A stretch of 64,000 bases of DNA, taken from Bacteroides luti (GTDB lineage: Bacteria; Bacteroidota; Bacteroidia; Bacteroidales; Bacteroidaceae). Below the pieces are notes generated by a model that ran no database searches, was not told the origin of the DNA, and saw only the letters and a program-made list of their open reading frames with translations. Positions 4,489-38,660 of the stretch are shown here, piece after piece. The stretch is from NCBI RefSeq assembly GCF_900128905.1, contig NZ_FQTV01000001.1, positions 62,001 to 126,000 of the forward strand, in the 5' to 3' direction. How positions within the stretch are numbered: the first letter of the stretch is position 1; the number at the start of each line of letters is the position of its first letter. Both the position numbers and the translations under genes were made by a program.

Positions 4489-5193
4489 ATGGAACAAGAA
4501 GTTTATTCAATGCCTCGTATTGGAGATTTGGCTCCTCATTTTGAAGCCGTGACTACGCAGGGAACAATTAAATTCCCCGATGATTATCAGGGAAAATGGA
4601 TTATATTATTTAGTCATCCGGCCGATTTTACACCGGTTTGTACTTCTGAGTTTATGACTTTTGCCACATTGGAAAGTCAGTTTAAAGAATTGAATTGCCA
4701 GTTGGTGGGACTTTCTGTTGACGGTCTTTATAGCCATATCGCCTGGTTGCGGACTATTAAAGAGAAGATTGAGTATAGAGGAATGAAGAATGTAGAGGTT
4801 ACATTCCCACTTATCGAGGACATTACCATGACAGTAGCTAAAAGATATGGAATGATTCAACCAGGAGAGAGTAATACTAAAGCAGTACGTGCAGTCTTTT
4901 TTATTGATCCTGTAGGAAAGATTCGTGCCATTATTTATTATCCACTTTCATTGGGCCGAAATTTCGATGAACTATTGCGTGTATTGATGGCACTTCAAAC
5001 AGCCGATGCGTTCAGCATTGCAACACCAGCCGACTGGCGTCCGGGCGATGATGTAATAGTACCAACGGCGGGTTCTTGTGGTGTAGCTAAAGATAGGATG
5101 GAAGGAAAGGAGAGTGGCGTTACCTGCCATGATTGGTTTTTCTGCACTAAGCCTATTCCAAAAGATGAAATTATGAAGAAGATTAAAAAGTAG
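4489..5193 (+). CDS. Peroxiredoxin (AhpC/TSA, Prx6-like)
   Basis: 234-residue thiol peroxidase that reduces H2O2 and organic or inorganic peroxides. The peroxidatic Cys51 sits in HPADFTPVCTSEF, the Prx6-type active-site motif. The extended C-terminal domain has Cys197, Cys213 and Cys219; the last pair is spaced like Cys207/Cys213 of the archaeal thioredoxin peroxidase group, so a resolving cysteine is probably present. I chose the ATG at 4489; an open frame extends upstream to 4324, but those codons are AT-rich and unlike the family. A terminator follows at 5228-5261, so it is monocistronic. Confidence 0.95.
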   Translation: MEQEVYSMPRIGDLAPHFEAVTTQGTIKFPDDYQGKWIILFSHPADFTPVCTSEFMTFATLESQFKELNCQLVGLSVDGLYSHIAWLRTIKEKIEYRGMKNVEVTFPLIEDITMTVAKRYGMIQPGESNTKAVRAVFFIDPVGKIRAIIYYPLSLGRNFDELLRVLMALQTADAFSIATPADWRPGDDVIVPTAGSCGVAKDRMEGKESGVTCHDWFFCTKPIPKDEIMKKIKK

Positions 5194-5227
5194 ACTTGAT
5201 TATATCCATAATACAATTAACTGTTAT

Positions 5228-5261
5228 AAAGCGAGATTTCCAGATTGGGGAGTCTCGCTTT
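5228..5261 (+). terminator. Intrinsic terminator after the peroxiredoxin gene
   Basis: Inverted repeat AAAGCGAGATTTCC / GGAGTCTCGCTTT with a short loop, 35 bp after the stop codon. Confidence 0.75.
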
Positions 5262-5323
5262 ACTAATTTGCAATATACCTACCATTTATTTTTTATGAAA
5301 AATAAACATCAAAACAATTCATT

Positions 5324-5347
5324 ATGAACAAATGTTCATTATATTTG
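5324..5347 (+). promoter_or_regulatory. Promoter with overlapping palindromic operator
   Basis: An exact TAnnTTTG -7 box (TATATTTG, 5340-5347) lies directly after a perfect palindrome ATGAACAAATGTTCAT (5324-5339), which fills the space where a repressor would block the promoter. The first gene of the operon encodes a helix-turn-helix protein, so autoregulation is an obvious possibility, but not shown. Confidence 0.65.
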
Positions 5348-9781: not shown

Positions 9782-10228
9782 TTACTCCCACGTTTCATCG
9801 GCTGTGTTAAAACAGGGGCATTCCTTCACACGCTCAGATGGCTCGATAATGCCGTTATAGTTTTTATCCGGACTCAAATCCCGATGGCCTACTACCTTGC
9901 AGCCGGGAAACTCTTTGAGTAACTTGCTGACCAGGGAGTGTAGTGCTATTTGCTGAGACAGTGTGCGGGTATCTGCCGGTTTGCCATTGGTGTCCAGTCC
10001 GCCTTCGTAGCAGATGCCGAGGGACTTTGCATTGTATCCTCGAGCGTGCGCTCCAACTTCATCGTGGCTCCGCATTGGTTCTACTTTGCCGTTCTTTCGG
10101 ATGTAATAGTGATAGCCCCACGAGCTGAACCCTCTTACCTTGTGAGCCGAATTAATGTCTTGTGCGGTTATATCTCTATCCACTCTCGTTGCCGAGCAAT
10201 GAATTACTATTAAATTTATTTCTCTCAT
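9782..10228 (-). CDS. N-acetylmuramoyl-L-alanine amidase (T7 lysozyme-like)
   Basis: 148 residues, amidase_2/PGRP fold that cuts the lactyl-peptide bond of peptidoglycan using zinc. Zinc-ligand His occur in IVIHCSATR, and in VVGHRDLSPDKNYN, with a typical final Cys further on. No signal peptide, as for phage endolysins that need a partner to cross the membrane. It lies in the small minus-strand cluster with a coiled-coil protein and an HU-like protein that is common in Bacteroides genomes. Confidence 0.93.
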   Translation of the reverse strand: MREINLIVIHCSATRVDRDITAQDINSAHKVRGFSSWGYHYYIRKNGKVEPMRSHDEVGAHARGYNAKSLGICYEGGLDTNGKPADTRTLSQQIALHSLVSKLLKEFPGCKVVGHRDLSPDKNYNGIIEPSERVKECPCFNTADETWE

Positions 10229-10235
10229 TTTGTTT

Positions 10236-10618
10236 TGCCGTAATTTAATTTAAAATGCCGTAATCTTCGTTTTAATTCCCCATTAACAGGGCTTTCTGAA
10301 TCTCTAATTGCCGTAATTTGTATTCCGTTTCCGTTATTAAAATACTAGTGCCGTAATTCCATTCCGGGAATCCTATAAACAAAGGCATTCTGAATCCCTA
10401 AATGCCGTTATTTATATATCGTTCCCGTAATTTATTTACGACTGCCGTAATCTTGATTCTGGAATCCCTATTAACAGGGGTTTCTGAATCTCTAAATGCC
10501 GTAATTTGTATTTTGTTCCCGTAATTTATTTACGACTGCCGTAATCTTGATTCTGGAATCCCTATTAACAGGGTTTTCTAAATCTATAAATGCCGTAATT
10601 CTGTTTTTGGTGCCGTAA
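10236..10618. repeat. 94-bp-period tandem repeat with TGCCGTAA boxes
   Basis: TGCCGTAA/TGCCGTTA boxes start at 10236, 10256, 10309, 10349, 10403, 10443, 10497, 10537, 10591 and 10611. The spacing is 20, 53, 40, 54, 40, 54, 40, 54, 20, giving about 3.5 units of 93-94 bp. Each unit also holds an imperfect stem-loop around CCCTATTAACAGGG. The array fills the gap between the coiled-coil gene and the amidase gene and starts right at the stop codon of the former. No gene is seen within it. Confidence 0.9.
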
Positions 10619-10888
10619 CTATTGCCTGTCCTTGCAACCAACTACTATACATTGCTCTTTAAGAGCAGTATTTAACTGAGCGTTCAACGTAATCATCTCC
10701 TGATACATCAGCTTCACTTTCTCGGAAAGTTCGAAGTAATCCTTTTCAAAGCGGGTTACCTGCTCCATCAGGTAGTCGAACTGACTCTTTACCAGTTCGG
10801 TGAAATCCTGTACCTGCTTGGCATCCTTCTTTTTCAGAAAAGGAAGTACCATTTGCAGAATGTTTATTATGCCATCTAAAATTTTCAT
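10619..10888 (-). CDS. Small protein with hydrophobic N-terminus and coiled coil
   Basis: 89 residues. Residues 1-18 form an amphipathic or membrane helix (ILDGIINILQMVLPFL), followed by a long charged helical region (VKSQFDYLMEQVTRFEKDY) and a short tail with two Cys. I do not recognise the family. The place between an HU-like gene and a T7-type amidase gene suggests a helper of the amidase, such as a membrane anchor, but that is only context. Confidence 0.6.
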   Translation of the reverse strand: MKILDGIINILQMVLPFLKKKDAKQVQDFTELVKSQFDYLMEQVTRFEKDYFELSEKVKLMYQEMITLNAQLNTALKEQCIVVGCKDRQ

Positions 10889-11129: not shown

Positions 11130-11555
11130 CTATCCCACCTCGTTACCACCATTGGTAACCTTTACCGGAAGCTTGGCCACTTGCGTATATGCAAGCGTTT
11201 TTTGCATATTGGTGAGCAACTTACCTGGGCGGAAACTGATTCTGGTTCCGCGAATCATGGAAGATACGAACTCATCTTCGGTAGTGGCACCGTTGCTTCT
11301 CACCCCAATCTGGAAACTACCGAAGTTACCCAGACGAACAATTCTACCCTCGGCCAAAGCCTTTTTCATCGATTCCAAAATTGCTTCCACTGCTGCTGCC
11401 ACATCGGCACGGGTTACGGTGCATCGTCCGTTTACCTCTTCGCAAAGCGAATCAAAATCCATTTCACCATACGCCTGTGCGTGTGCGTAATACTTTCCCG
11501 GTTCCGAAGATTTAGACGGATTCTTTCTCATAACTACTGAATACTTTACACTCAT
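11130..11555 (-). CDS. HU-like DNA-binding protein
   Basis: 141 residues, an HU/IHF-related family typical of Bacteroidetes. The N-terminus is divergent (MSVKYSVVMRKNP); the HU core follows with VTRADVAAAVEAILESMKKALAEGR and VRLGNFGSFQIGVRS, and FRPGKLL is the end of the DNA-binding arm region. The C-terminal tail is extended relative to HU. It belongs to the recurring amidase/HU/DUF4248 cluster; the function of that cluster is not known. A TATCTTTG -7 box lies on the minus strand at 11627-11620. Confidence 0.9.
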   Translation of the reverse strand: MSVKYSVVMRKNPSKSSEPGKYYAHAQAYGEMDFDSLCEEVNGRCTVTRADVAAAVEAILESMKKALAEGRIVRLGNFGSFQIGVRSNGATTEDEFVSSMIRGTRISFRPGKLLTNMQKTLAYTQVAKLPVKVTNGGNEVG

Positions 11556-11773
11556 TTTCTTTACATTTTAGTTGATTAATACTGCGGTAAAGAGCTCTTA
11601 TCCTTTCTTGTTAACACTACAAAGATAGGGCATGGCGGGTGAACGGAAACAGTAGAGTGTATTAGGTGTAATTGGTTTGAATTAATTACAATTATCAGGC
11701 GTTTTATTGCCTTGAAAACTTGTTTAAACGGGCAAAAATTGGTAAATTTACGGTAAGAAAATCAAGAAATAGT

Positions 11774-12004
11774 ATGATAAAAACAGAAGAAGAATTTAAA
11801 ATCCGGGCTTATACCAAGGTAGAACTGGCTTGCCTTTACAATCCGCACATGACTATTCCCGGAGCCTTGCGCATACTTGCCCGCTGGATAGCCGGCAACA
11901 CTCAGCTAACAGCCGAGCTTTGCGCTTTGGAATACAATCATCGTAACCGCATTTATACGCCACGCCAGGTAAAGGCGATAGTAGACTATTTGGGAGAACC
12001 TTAG
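11774..12004 (+). CDS. DUF4248-family protein (1)
   Basis: 76 residues from the ATG at 11774 (an upstream in-frame start at 11720 adds 18 unlike residues). Family pattern: IRAYTKVELACLYNP, then ALRILARWI, and the C-terminal YTPRQVKAIVDYLGEP. It is divergent from the HU-like gene on the other strand. Function is unknown; the family regularly accompanies the HU/amidase cluster in Bacteroides. A second member lies at 19438-19710. Confidence 0.85.
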   Translation: MIKTEEEFKIRAYTKVELACLYNPHMTIPGALRILARWIAGNTQLTAELCALEYNHRNRIYTPRQVKAIVDYLGEP

Positions 12005-16886: not shown

Positions 16887-18338
16887 TTACTTAGTAAACA
16901 AATTTCCAATCTCCGGCAGAGGTTGTTTTTCCGGCTCTTGCGTTTGCGCTACGTTCTTCTTGTTACTGTTGCGCACAAGCTGCTCCATTACCGGAACATA
17001 ATCCTCAATCTTCGTCATACTCTTGTTGTGCGAGAAGTACACATTGCCCGTCTGCCCGTTACGATGCTTGGCGGCAATCAGTATCCCCAGGCCATCCGTA
17101 GGATATCCGCTGTCCTTGTCGGTTGCCATGCCACCCATGGCAGGGCGGTAGAGTAGCAATACCAGATCGGCATCCTGTTCTATGGCACCACTCTCGCGCA
17201 GATCTGCCAACTGCGGACGCTTGCCCGGTCTTGTTTCCGCATCACGATTCAGCTGACTGAGCAGAATCACGGGACAGTCGAGTTCCTTGGCAATCATCTT
17301 TGCCTTCCGGGTAGCAATGGCCACGTCCTGCTCGCGGTTGCGAAACCCCTTGTCGCCCGTTCTCATATCACTAAGCTGCAGGTAGTCGATAAACACAATG
17401 TCGCACTTGCCCTTGCTCTTTAGCAAACGAGCCTCCGCCCGGATATAATCCATGCTCATCGACGGATTATCATCAATCCGCATTGGCAGACGAGCCAGTT
17501 CTCTGGCCGTTTCTTGTGCCGCTATCCACTCCTCCGTGCCGGTTTGCCCCGTGCGCCAGTCCTGCGGATTGATGTCACTCTCCAGCAAAATAAGTCGGTC
17601 GCCCAGTTTTTCGCCCTGCATCTCGATGCTGCAAAACAGCGCATTGAATCCCGCCTGAGCTGCCACTTTAGCTAGAAACAGCGCCACCATGGTTTTACCC
17701 ACCGACGGGCGAGCCGCTATGATGTTGAGATCGCCATTCTGCCAACCCGCCGTGAGCTCGTCCAGCGCCTTTATACCCGTAGGAATGCCCGTAACCCCGT
17801 CTTTCGACTGATCCCTGCGGATGGCAGCCAGATTAACGGTATCCTTCATCAGCACATCCATTTCGCGGAGAGACCTTGTCCAGCTGGAATCCTTCCCAAT
17901 CTCGTCCAGCATCTGCTGCGTGTTGCAAATCACATCCTCGGTATAGAAAGTCAAGTCCACAGCCTTGCTCAGCGAATCGCTCAGTCCCTTTATCAGTTCC
18001 CTGCGAATAAAGTAATCCTTCAGCGTCTGCGAGTGCGTTTCCAGGTGAGCCGAACTAGCCACCCTGCTGCTCAGCTGCACAATGGCAAACGGTCCGCCCA
18101 CCTCCTCCAGTTTGCCTCGCCGCTTCAGTTCCTCGGTCACAGTGATAATATCAATGCTGCGCCCCTCGTTAAACATGCCCTCAATAGCGCTGTAAATCTG
18201 TTGATGCTTATCATCGTAAAACATTTCCGGGCGAAGGTACTGACTGGCAATAGGCATCGCCTTGGTTTCCAGCAGTAAAGCACCCAGAATGGCTTCCTCA
18301 TAATCCAGCGCAAAAGGCATGTTTATATTTTTGTTCAT
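16887..18338 (-). CDS. Replicative DNA helicase DnaB-like
   Basis: 483 residues with N-terminal DnaB domain (DYEEAILGALLLE), linker, and RecA-like core: Walker A ARPSVGKT, Walker B-like DIVFIDYLQL, then LLSQLNRDAETRPGKRPQLADLRESGAIEQDAD with the arginine finger region. Length is normal. It follows a replication-organiser-like gene by 33 bp, far from other core replication genes, so I read it as the mobile-element type rather than the cell's main dnaB; this is inference. The open frame allows a start at MNKN or at MPFALD six residues later. Confidence 0.9.
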   Translation of the reverse strand: MNKNINMPFALDYEEAILGALLLETKAMPIASQYLRPEMFYDDKHQQIYSAIEGMFNEGRSIDIITVTEELKRRGKLEEVGGPFAIVQLSSRVASSAHLETHSQTLKDYFIRRELIKGLSDSLSKAVDLTFYTEDVICNTQQMLDEIGKDSSWTRSLREMDVLMKDTVNLAAIRRDQSKDGVTGIPTGIKALDELTAGWQNGDLNIIAARPSVGKTMVALFLAKVAAQAGFNALFCSIEMQGEKLGDRLILLESDINPQDWRTGQTGTEEWIAAQETARELARLPMRIDDNPSMSMDYIRAEARLLKSKGKCDIVFIDYLQLSDMRTGDKGFRNREQDVAIATRKAKMIAKELDCPVILLSQLNRDAETRPGKRPQLADLRESGAIEQDADLVLLLYRPAMGGMATDKDSGYPTDGLGILIAAKHRNGQTGNVYFSHNKSMTKIEDYVPVMEQLVRNSNKKNVAQTQEPEKQPLPEIGNLFTK

Positions 18339-18371: not shown

Positions 18372-18998
18372 TTACTCGTTAAGAAAAGATTTGTCTCTTA
18401 AGTACCTAAAACCCCGCTTAATGTACTTCGTATCCTCAAGACTGTGGTAGTAATAGTTAATCTGCTCCAGGGCAATTCTGCGTTCCCTCAGTGTTAGTTT
18501 TGACCACTCCCTACGGGCTGCTTCAACCTCCCTTTTAGGTGTTTGGGTAACCTCGTGGTACGTATTCCAGAATACATCGAAACTCTCGTCTGTTTTGGTT
18601 TTGCGCTTTTCCTCATTAACCTCTTTGCACTTGCTAGTCCACAGATCGTAGTTTACCACACGTATAATATTTAGCCCATTCTCCATCGGGATAGTCTGAA
18701 TCAGTTTGTTCTTCTCCATTCTGGCAAAGAAGCGTCTGGTTTTATGCCGCTTCCAGTGAAATAATTCGGCCCATTTATAGATGGAAATCATCGATTCGCC
18801 TCTGTGACAAATAATTTTCTCGTTGTAAATAGTAGCTACCGTATCCTTAAAGTTTACTTTGGTTAAAACCATTAAGAAAGCTTCCAGGTAACTCAGTTCA
18901 TTGTCTTTCTGTTTTAGTGACTCGAATAATAACTTTTTAGGGATTAATATATATCCACTTGTTAGCGCATTGTAAGGCAAAATTTCATTCTTTTCCAT
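18372..18998 (-). CDS. Replication organiser/helicase-loader-like protein
   Basis: 208 residues. The N-terminal part (about 40-115) resembles a winged-helix (SIYKWAELFHWKRHKTRRFFARMEKNKLI). The C-terminal part (FDVFWNTYHE, KREVEAARREWSKL, ALEQINYYYH, YIKRGFRYLRDKSFLNE) is like the DNA-binding tail of phage replisome organisers, which ends in a W/F-L-N motif. Next to dnaB, it could load the helicase. Promoter on the minus strand at 19084-19053. Confidence 0.7.
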   Translation of the reverse strand: MEKNEILPYNALTSGYILIPKKLLFESLKQKDNELSYLEAFLMVLTKVNFKDTVATIYNEKIICHRGESMISIYKWAELFHWKRHKTRRFFARMEKNKLIQTIPMENGLNIIRVVNYDLWTSKCKEVNEEKRKTKTDESFDVFWNTYHEVTQTPKREVEAARREWSKLTLRERRIALEQINYYYHSLEDTKYIKRGFRYLRDKSFLNE

Positions 18999-19052
18999 CG
19001 ATTTAAATTTAATTTTTAGTTGGGCTCAAAACGGTTTATTTGTTTGTGTGGT

Positions 19053-38106: not shown

Positions 38107-38520
38107 ATGTACGAAGAAGATTACTTTATGAAATTGATTCAGGAGTTTTTTCAGGCATTGGATAAAGCCATTCATGGAAAGAAAAGCCTGGATAATCCAT
38201 CTGACCAGGAGAACTGTGTCAGCGATTTGTATGGTTCTTATTTTCAGGCAGATTCTGCTTTCTTCTATGGATATGATGTGATGACGATATTAGGCTTTCT
38301 GAGGGAAAGATGTGAAGAGCAGGACTTGCCTATGATGATAGAAATGATTTCGGAACTGTTCTATCAGGATGCTCTGCTGAAAACGGATGATGCACTGAAA
38401 AATAATCTGCTTGAGAAAGCGTTGTTCTTTTTAAGTTATCTCGACGAGCAGAGTGATACTTACTCTGTAGAGAGGAAAGATAAAATTGCTCTTATCAAAA
38501 GGATGCTTGGGAGAGAATAA
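38107..38520 (+). CDS. Small acidic protein of unknown family
   Basis: 137 residues, mostly helical and acidic (MKLIQEFFQALDKAIHGKKSL, then FLRERCEEQDLPMMIEMI). No known domain. Its stop codon is inside the first unit of a 66-bp tandem repeat. Operon partner of the membrane protein just upstream. Confidence 0.6.
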   Translation: MYEEDYFMKLIQEFFQALDKAIHGKKSLDNPSDQENCVSDLYGSYFQADSAFFYGYDVMTILGFLRERCEEQDLPMMIEMISELFYQDALLKTDDALKNNLLEKALFFLSYLDEQSDTYSVERKDKIALIKRMLGRE

Positions 38521-38660
38521 TTCACTTTGTTTCTTACAGGGAATTATGATCAACTCGATAGCTTTTTGGCTTTTGGAAAAGAATAATTCTCTTTGTTTCT
38601 TTCAGGGAAGTATCATCAACCCGATGGCTTATTGGCTCTTGGGAAAGAATAATTGTGCCG
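38509..38660. repeat. 66-bp tandem repeat starting in the 3' end of a gene
   Basis: GAATAATTC/G appears at 38515, 38581 and 38647, exactly 66 bp apart. The 66-bp units are about 80% alike. The first copy carries the gene's last codons and its TAA stop; because 66 is a multiple of three, the later copies have the same frame and repeat the stop. Confidence 0.85.

Follow-up and report, generated by a model that had tools for sequence, protein, structure and literature searches.

The gap between a coiled-coil gene and a phage-endolysin-type amidase gene in the window (the whole 64-kb stretch of DNA analysed here) is filled by a repeat array, and comparison of this array with its counterparts elsewhere in the genome and in related species shows that its modules are gained, lost and remodelled fast while the ACGGCA at each module border stays near constant. 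Judged from these alignments, the core behaves like a multi-copy recognition site, with neutral turnover explaining the units and not the frozen core. The reading that we tentatively favour is that of a fast-turning minisatellite whose boxes may be kept as putative multi-copy binding sites, likeliest on the operon mRNA, where they would control the amidase.

The array (10236–10618, minus strand, 383 bases) runs from the stop codon of the coiled-coil gene, hereafter cc, to the amidase start region, occupying exactly the gap between the two, and is built of modules of 20 bp, 40 bp (20 + 20) and 53 or 54 bp. Module borders are marked by a box that on the coding (minus) strand reads T(T/A)ACGGCA and on the plus strand appears as nine exact copies of TGCCGTAA, at 10236–10243 (box 1, the amidase-proximal one), 10256–10263 (box 2), 10309–10316 (box 3), 10349–10356 (box 4), 10443–10450 (box 6), 10497–10504 (box 7), 10537–10544 (box 8), 10591–10598 (box 9) and 10611–10618 (box 10, immediately preceded on the minus strand by the cc stop codon), and as one variant, TGCCGTTA, at 10403–10410 (box 5). 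Box-to-box spacings are, in order, 20-53-40-54-40-54-40-54-20. Each 40-bp module consists of two tandem 20-bp modules, the second starting at exactly +20 with a degenerate half-box (TTCCGTTA at 10329, following box 3; TCCCGTAA at 10423 and 10517, following boxes 5 and 7), and the array grammar is one of 20-bp and 53/54-bp modules with one 20-bp module at each end. The first-pass annotation had located the array correctly, its first box starting at 10236 and its last ending at 10618, whilst its description of ten boxes in strict 40/54 alternation needs qualifying: one of the ten is the variant at 10403, and the alternation holds for the core but not for the ends, each of which carries a 20-bp pair, nor for the one interval of 53 bp. 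Exact TGCCGTAA occurs 12 times in the window compared with 1.38 ± 1.14 times in shuffles (shuffle maximum 6), and TRF reports the array as 94 bp × 3.9 with a score of 447. A second tandem repeat was seen in the window at 38506–38654 (66 bp × 2.3, score 228). A simple one-unit or CRISPR-like tandem repeat was rejected on the spacings of 20, 40, 53 and 54 bp and on the periods found at different loci (93/94 bp with a higher order of 186/188 bp, 73/166 bp, 89 bp and 151 bp), between which copy number and spacers vary too.

Along the minus strand the operon runs from the HU-HIG DNA-binding protein (11130–11555, the first gene) through cc (10619–10888) and the array to the amidase (9782–10228), in agreement with the first-pass placement of the array after the coiled-coil gene and before the amidase gene, both neighbours being on the minus strand. 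The latter encodes an N-acetylmuramoyl-L-alanine amidase of phage-endolysin type (Amidase_2; phrog_822, E 4e-52), and cc an 89-aa coiled-coil protein with no Pfam or NCBIfam match and a weak Rz-like spanin match (E 0.03). A DUF4248 gene diverges from HU (11720–12004, plus strand; start codon uncertain, with an ATG near 11774). The DnaB-like replicative helicase (16965–18338) and DnaD-like helicase-loader (18375–19001) genes of the same cassette, both given as tblastn extents and both on the minus strand, lie ~5 kb from HU-cc-amidase with other genes between, and copies of the cassette elsewhere in the genome and in relatives also encode the DnaD-like loader and DnaB-like helicase. A Bacteroides ovatus cassette (NZ_CP081918.1), annotated beside glycosyltransferases, shares the order Lin1244-type/DnaD protein, primase/helicase, DUF4248, HU, hypothetical (coiled-coil) protein and amidase, but its coiled-coil–amidase gap is only a few bases long and has no array. 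In the HU–cc gap of other cassettes we observed tandem repeats of 42 bp (L054, 5791–5889) and 27 bp (L071, 4937–5042).

A promoter-like −7 motif of the TAnnTTTG type, TATCTTTG, lies ~72 bp upstream of HU (11620–11627, minus strand), and 16 of 17 cassettes carry a motif of this type (TATCTTTG or TATATTTG) ~73 bp before HU; comparison of the 17 cassettes found no other shared promoter-like motif, and none in the cc–amidase gap. Since the sole conserved promoter-like motif is the one upstream of HU, a single transcript likely runs through the array in the window's clade, and because the operon appears to have this one promoter the polycistronic mRNA would be the likeliest place of action. An RNA-level reading is preferred in this clade because the array takes the place of tight intercistronic spacing in an operon for which the cassettes share a single promoter motif, and it is weakened by the second clade, where a terminator-like hairpin follows cc. 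This hairpin (~−16 to −20 kcal/mol) stands right after the cc stop codon in L054, L055, L119, L120, L171 and L060 (cassettes of G003, G155 and G050), both of its arms have changed in sequence between species, and the array there may not be on the HU–cc transcript.

The replication genes of the cassette raise the alternative, in our judgement unlikely, that the array acts at the DNA level: a cassette protein (the DnaD-like loader or HU) would bind the iteron-like boxes, which would serve a phage-like element as its origin, for its partition or to control its replication. Iterons at plasmid, phage and satellite origins repeat a short asymmetric box in direct orientation; the array does likewise, with boxes 20 bp or about two helical turns apart at its ends, and the cassettes that carry arrays come from the subfamily encoding a DnaD-like and a DnaB-like protein, no array being present where those genes are missing. 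Against this, L061 and L066 have intact DnaD/DnaB and no array, and at L045 the array has been kept although the neighbouring DnaB is broken. Phasing on a 10.5-bp helical repeat is found in part of clade 1 (0.79 in the window array and 0.85 in L051), but differs between the arrays of that clade and is not seen in clade 2 (R 0.02–0.05, L119 and L054), where it fails as proof of DNA binding. Array spacings of 20/40/53/54 or 25/49/52 bp also set the array apart from iterons, as do its position between lysis-type genes and its residence at fixed chromosomal loci that are syntenic across species.

The first-pass annotation had further described a stem-loop in each unit and suggested a structured RNA. 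Of the four long modules, two (10443 and 10537) have a clear stem-loop and the other two a poor one, and the best stem-loop (10455–10490; GATTC-T-GGAATCCCT-ATTAAC-AGGGGTTTC-T-GAATC) is not conserved across modules. A conserved structured RNA was rejected on covariation and strand symmetry: registers slid along as controls scored as well for stem covariation, the RNAalifold consensus contained only three weak pairs, and folding of the whole array was equally strong in antisense (z −3.56 vs. −3.37). Folding of the L050 array was unremarkable (z −1.2) and the window gave no Rfam match at gathering thresholds. On the coding strand clade 1 boxes were on average slightly more accessible than shuffles, and clade 2 boxes less accessible than shuffles in two of the four arrays tested (L054 and L120). 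A protein-coding repeat was also rejected, as periods of 94 and 151 bp break the frame and only L046 was seen open, its 93-bp period leaving an 87-aa ORF of 31-aa repeats (5064–5327, minus strand).

Between the two closest species the orthologous arrays (the window locus and L118) differ in length by exactly one 94-bp unit, and the L046 and L117 arrays differ by 52 bp, approximately one 53-bp module. Such rapid turnover, together with the mixing of paralogous loci in the amidase tree and the loss or reduction of the array in relatives, is what would be expected of a neutral minisatellite arising by slippage and unequal exchange in a permissive gap, with box conservation reflecting homogenisation among paralogous cassettes and not function. 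The same gap in a distant species (G017; L075, 5427–5586) is filled by a non-homologous 73-bp tandem repeat, which also suits this explanation, and we regard it as a real possibility though still on the unlikely side. Homogenisation works on whole modules, however, and would not spare the boxes whilst spacers diverge by 12–26%; moreover, boxes are the same between species whose module lengths differ (20/40/53 vs. 25/49/52 bp). The long modules of both clades are recognisably homologous, and the array is hence older than the clade split, with loss or reduction afterwards in some lines.

Across 15 array pairs the ACGGCA core mismatched at 24/897 (2.7%) and other array columns at 758/5227 (14.5%), box columns being defined by union such that a box lost in one partner scores as a mismatch, and the rates being drawn from few species with independence lowered by paralogous exchange. 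Conservation of the site above its surrounding DNA, the mark of multi-site cis-regulatory elements, is thus seen here. As the 15 pairs share sequence the clean tests are single pairs, which gave core versus other mismatches of 0/66 vs. 48/386 (L046/L117), 0/66 vs. 107/407 (L119/L054) and 0/71 vs. 95/429 (L117/L118), whilst three syntenic locus pairs pooled gave 10/209 vs. 177/1145 (p 5e-6). The window array compared with its orthologue L118 showed no excess box conservation (3/60 vs. 20/356). Of 32 frequent 6-mers ACGGCA changed most slowly, with rates climbing as distance from the core grew. The binding array suggested at first pass finds support in one respect: the box core is conserved well beyond its surroundings, between paralogues and between species. 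The binding itself is putative. The box also occurs inside some amidase genes (ITA codons; L046, L050, L117 and L170), where it reflects synonymous variation in the coding of a conserved peptide; these copies were left out of the evidence.

Modules start and end at boxes, and fusions occur there, as in the 17-bp modules of L170, in which a full box is joined to a half-box. The box could on this account be an exchange point for a recombinase or for replication slippage, only matching boxes being propagated, but such module shuffling appears highly unlikely given that the box is only 6–8 bp long and lacks an inverted partner, that the cassette includes no recombinase, and that boxes are intact where the number of units has not changed.

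The host genome contains three array-bearing cassettes and two array-free paralogues, the latter with gaps of 21–22 bp, and the search of the genome and its relatives proposed at first pass also brought in four other species: true arrays were found by a two-box pattern search in five species (G000, G154, G026, G003 and G155) among 159 genomes of the genus, every one of them in the cc–amidase gap and in the same orientation. Of the 12 genomic copies of an extended motif, WTTACGGCATTW, 11 fall inside the three arrays. Gaps in array-free paralogues measure 17–25 bp, and that of L061, an array-free close relative (G050), is 5 bp; L060, also from G050, retains one box only. With the array lost or down to one box in L055, L060 and L061, arrays are dispensable. 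Absence or random variation in relatives had been named at first pass as evidence that would tell against function; relatives do differ in copy number and unit, and some have no array, but variation of the boxes is non-random. Flanking genes identify syntenic loci between species (the window locus, L118 and L049; L046 and L117; L045 and L170), indicating that the arrays are resident and not newly inserted. A scan of genome contigs with the coiled-coil alignment returned only two distant Bacteroides sp. loci, and the related-locus and DNA searches may lack records close to the window's genome.

A genus-wide distribution of TGCCGTAA arrays was rejected, the 22–23 bp TGCCGTAA repeats of L121–L126 being unrelated simple repeats, and a reversed control pattern matched about equally often in unrelated genomes. 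A viral origin was likewise rejected: no relatives of the array were found in the scanned viral contigs, 49 of which fitted a three-box pattern but did so through simple repeats of a different sequence, lacked the cassette genes and gave no blastn match to the arrays. In a G003 cassette (L058, G003:C2:3942381-3942608; L119, 5048–5101) a ~30-kb prophage-like insert appears to have integrated in cc at codons 72–76; it encodes a 558-aa resolvase-like protein (L119 ORF 3328–5004), by inspection a large serine recombinase, and the array and amidase lie intact on its far side. Minisatellites within MITEs are known in Bacteroidales, BrickBuilt of Porphyromonas gingivalis being a MITE/minisatellite with a 23-nt unit, terminal inverted repeats and scattered sites (PMC4596501), and the array resembles it as an intergenic Bacteroidales minisatellite with several loci per genome and variable copy number. 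An origin as a MITE or other mobile repeat is nevertheless extremely improbable, and identity with BrickBuilt was rejected, since the BrickBuilt unit (AGAYCATARTATCCTCTCRTRTG) is unrelated and has no conserved short box amid variable spacers, the ends of the array are direct and not inverted repeats, and all copies found lie in one gap of one cassette type, with none elsewhere bearing terminal inverted repeats and target duplications.

Returning to the favoured reading, of putative regulatory sites on the operon mRNA, we picture an array that resembles a minisatellite, with modules of 18–54 bp, in the untranslated cc–amidase gap of a multi-copy phage-like replication–lysis cassette, where it would stand in for the close spacing (5–25 bp) of the two genes in array-free cassettes. 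A protein or small RNA would recognise the box by its sequence, and the run of many sites would make its binding avid; on the polycistronic mRNA an RNA-binding factor would bind the UUACGGCA boxes, set in A/U-rich linkers, and may then determine how well the amidase cistron is translated or how stable it is, independently of HU and cc. The scheme's choice of RNA, its view of the binder and its direction of regulation are our inference. CsrB/RsmZ-type RNA sponges and multi-site mRNA leaders carry many copies of a short motif on one RNA, with GGA in hairpin loops. The predicted array RNA would similarly present many copies of a short single-stranded motif, but the motif is ACGGCA and not GGA in hairpin loops, and the array is predicted to be part of the operon mRNA. 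Within the same genus, the FopS/GibS sRNAs of Bacteroides thetaiotaomicron are bound by the RRM protein RbpB, which prefers single-stranded regions, and FopS are multicopy trans-acting sRNAs of ~65–70 nt grouped by a 41-nt motif (PMC11697453); the proposed array would share with them post-transcriptional control by a sequence-specific RNA-binding protein, whereas it would itself lie on the operon mRNA. A more specific version, which we hold to be distinctly doubtful, has a Bacteroides factor reading UUACGGCA on the mRNA, at least 10 copies per operon making a high-avidity switch or sponge that restrains a domesticated phage endolysin. A literature search, with most subscription papers outside its reach, found no published description of the array, the cassette or the box.

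The boxes, on the strength of their conservation, are probably landing sites for a regulator of the adjacent cell-wall-cutting enzyme, and the arrays adjoin an endolysin-type amidase that the cell should want tightly controlled. A 6-base core that is constant while unit length, number and spacers turn over between sister species offers a clean natural experiment for finding its reader, and array-bearing and array-free paralogues in one genome provide built-in controls, at a time when the discovery of Bacteroides RNA-binding regulators is only just starting.
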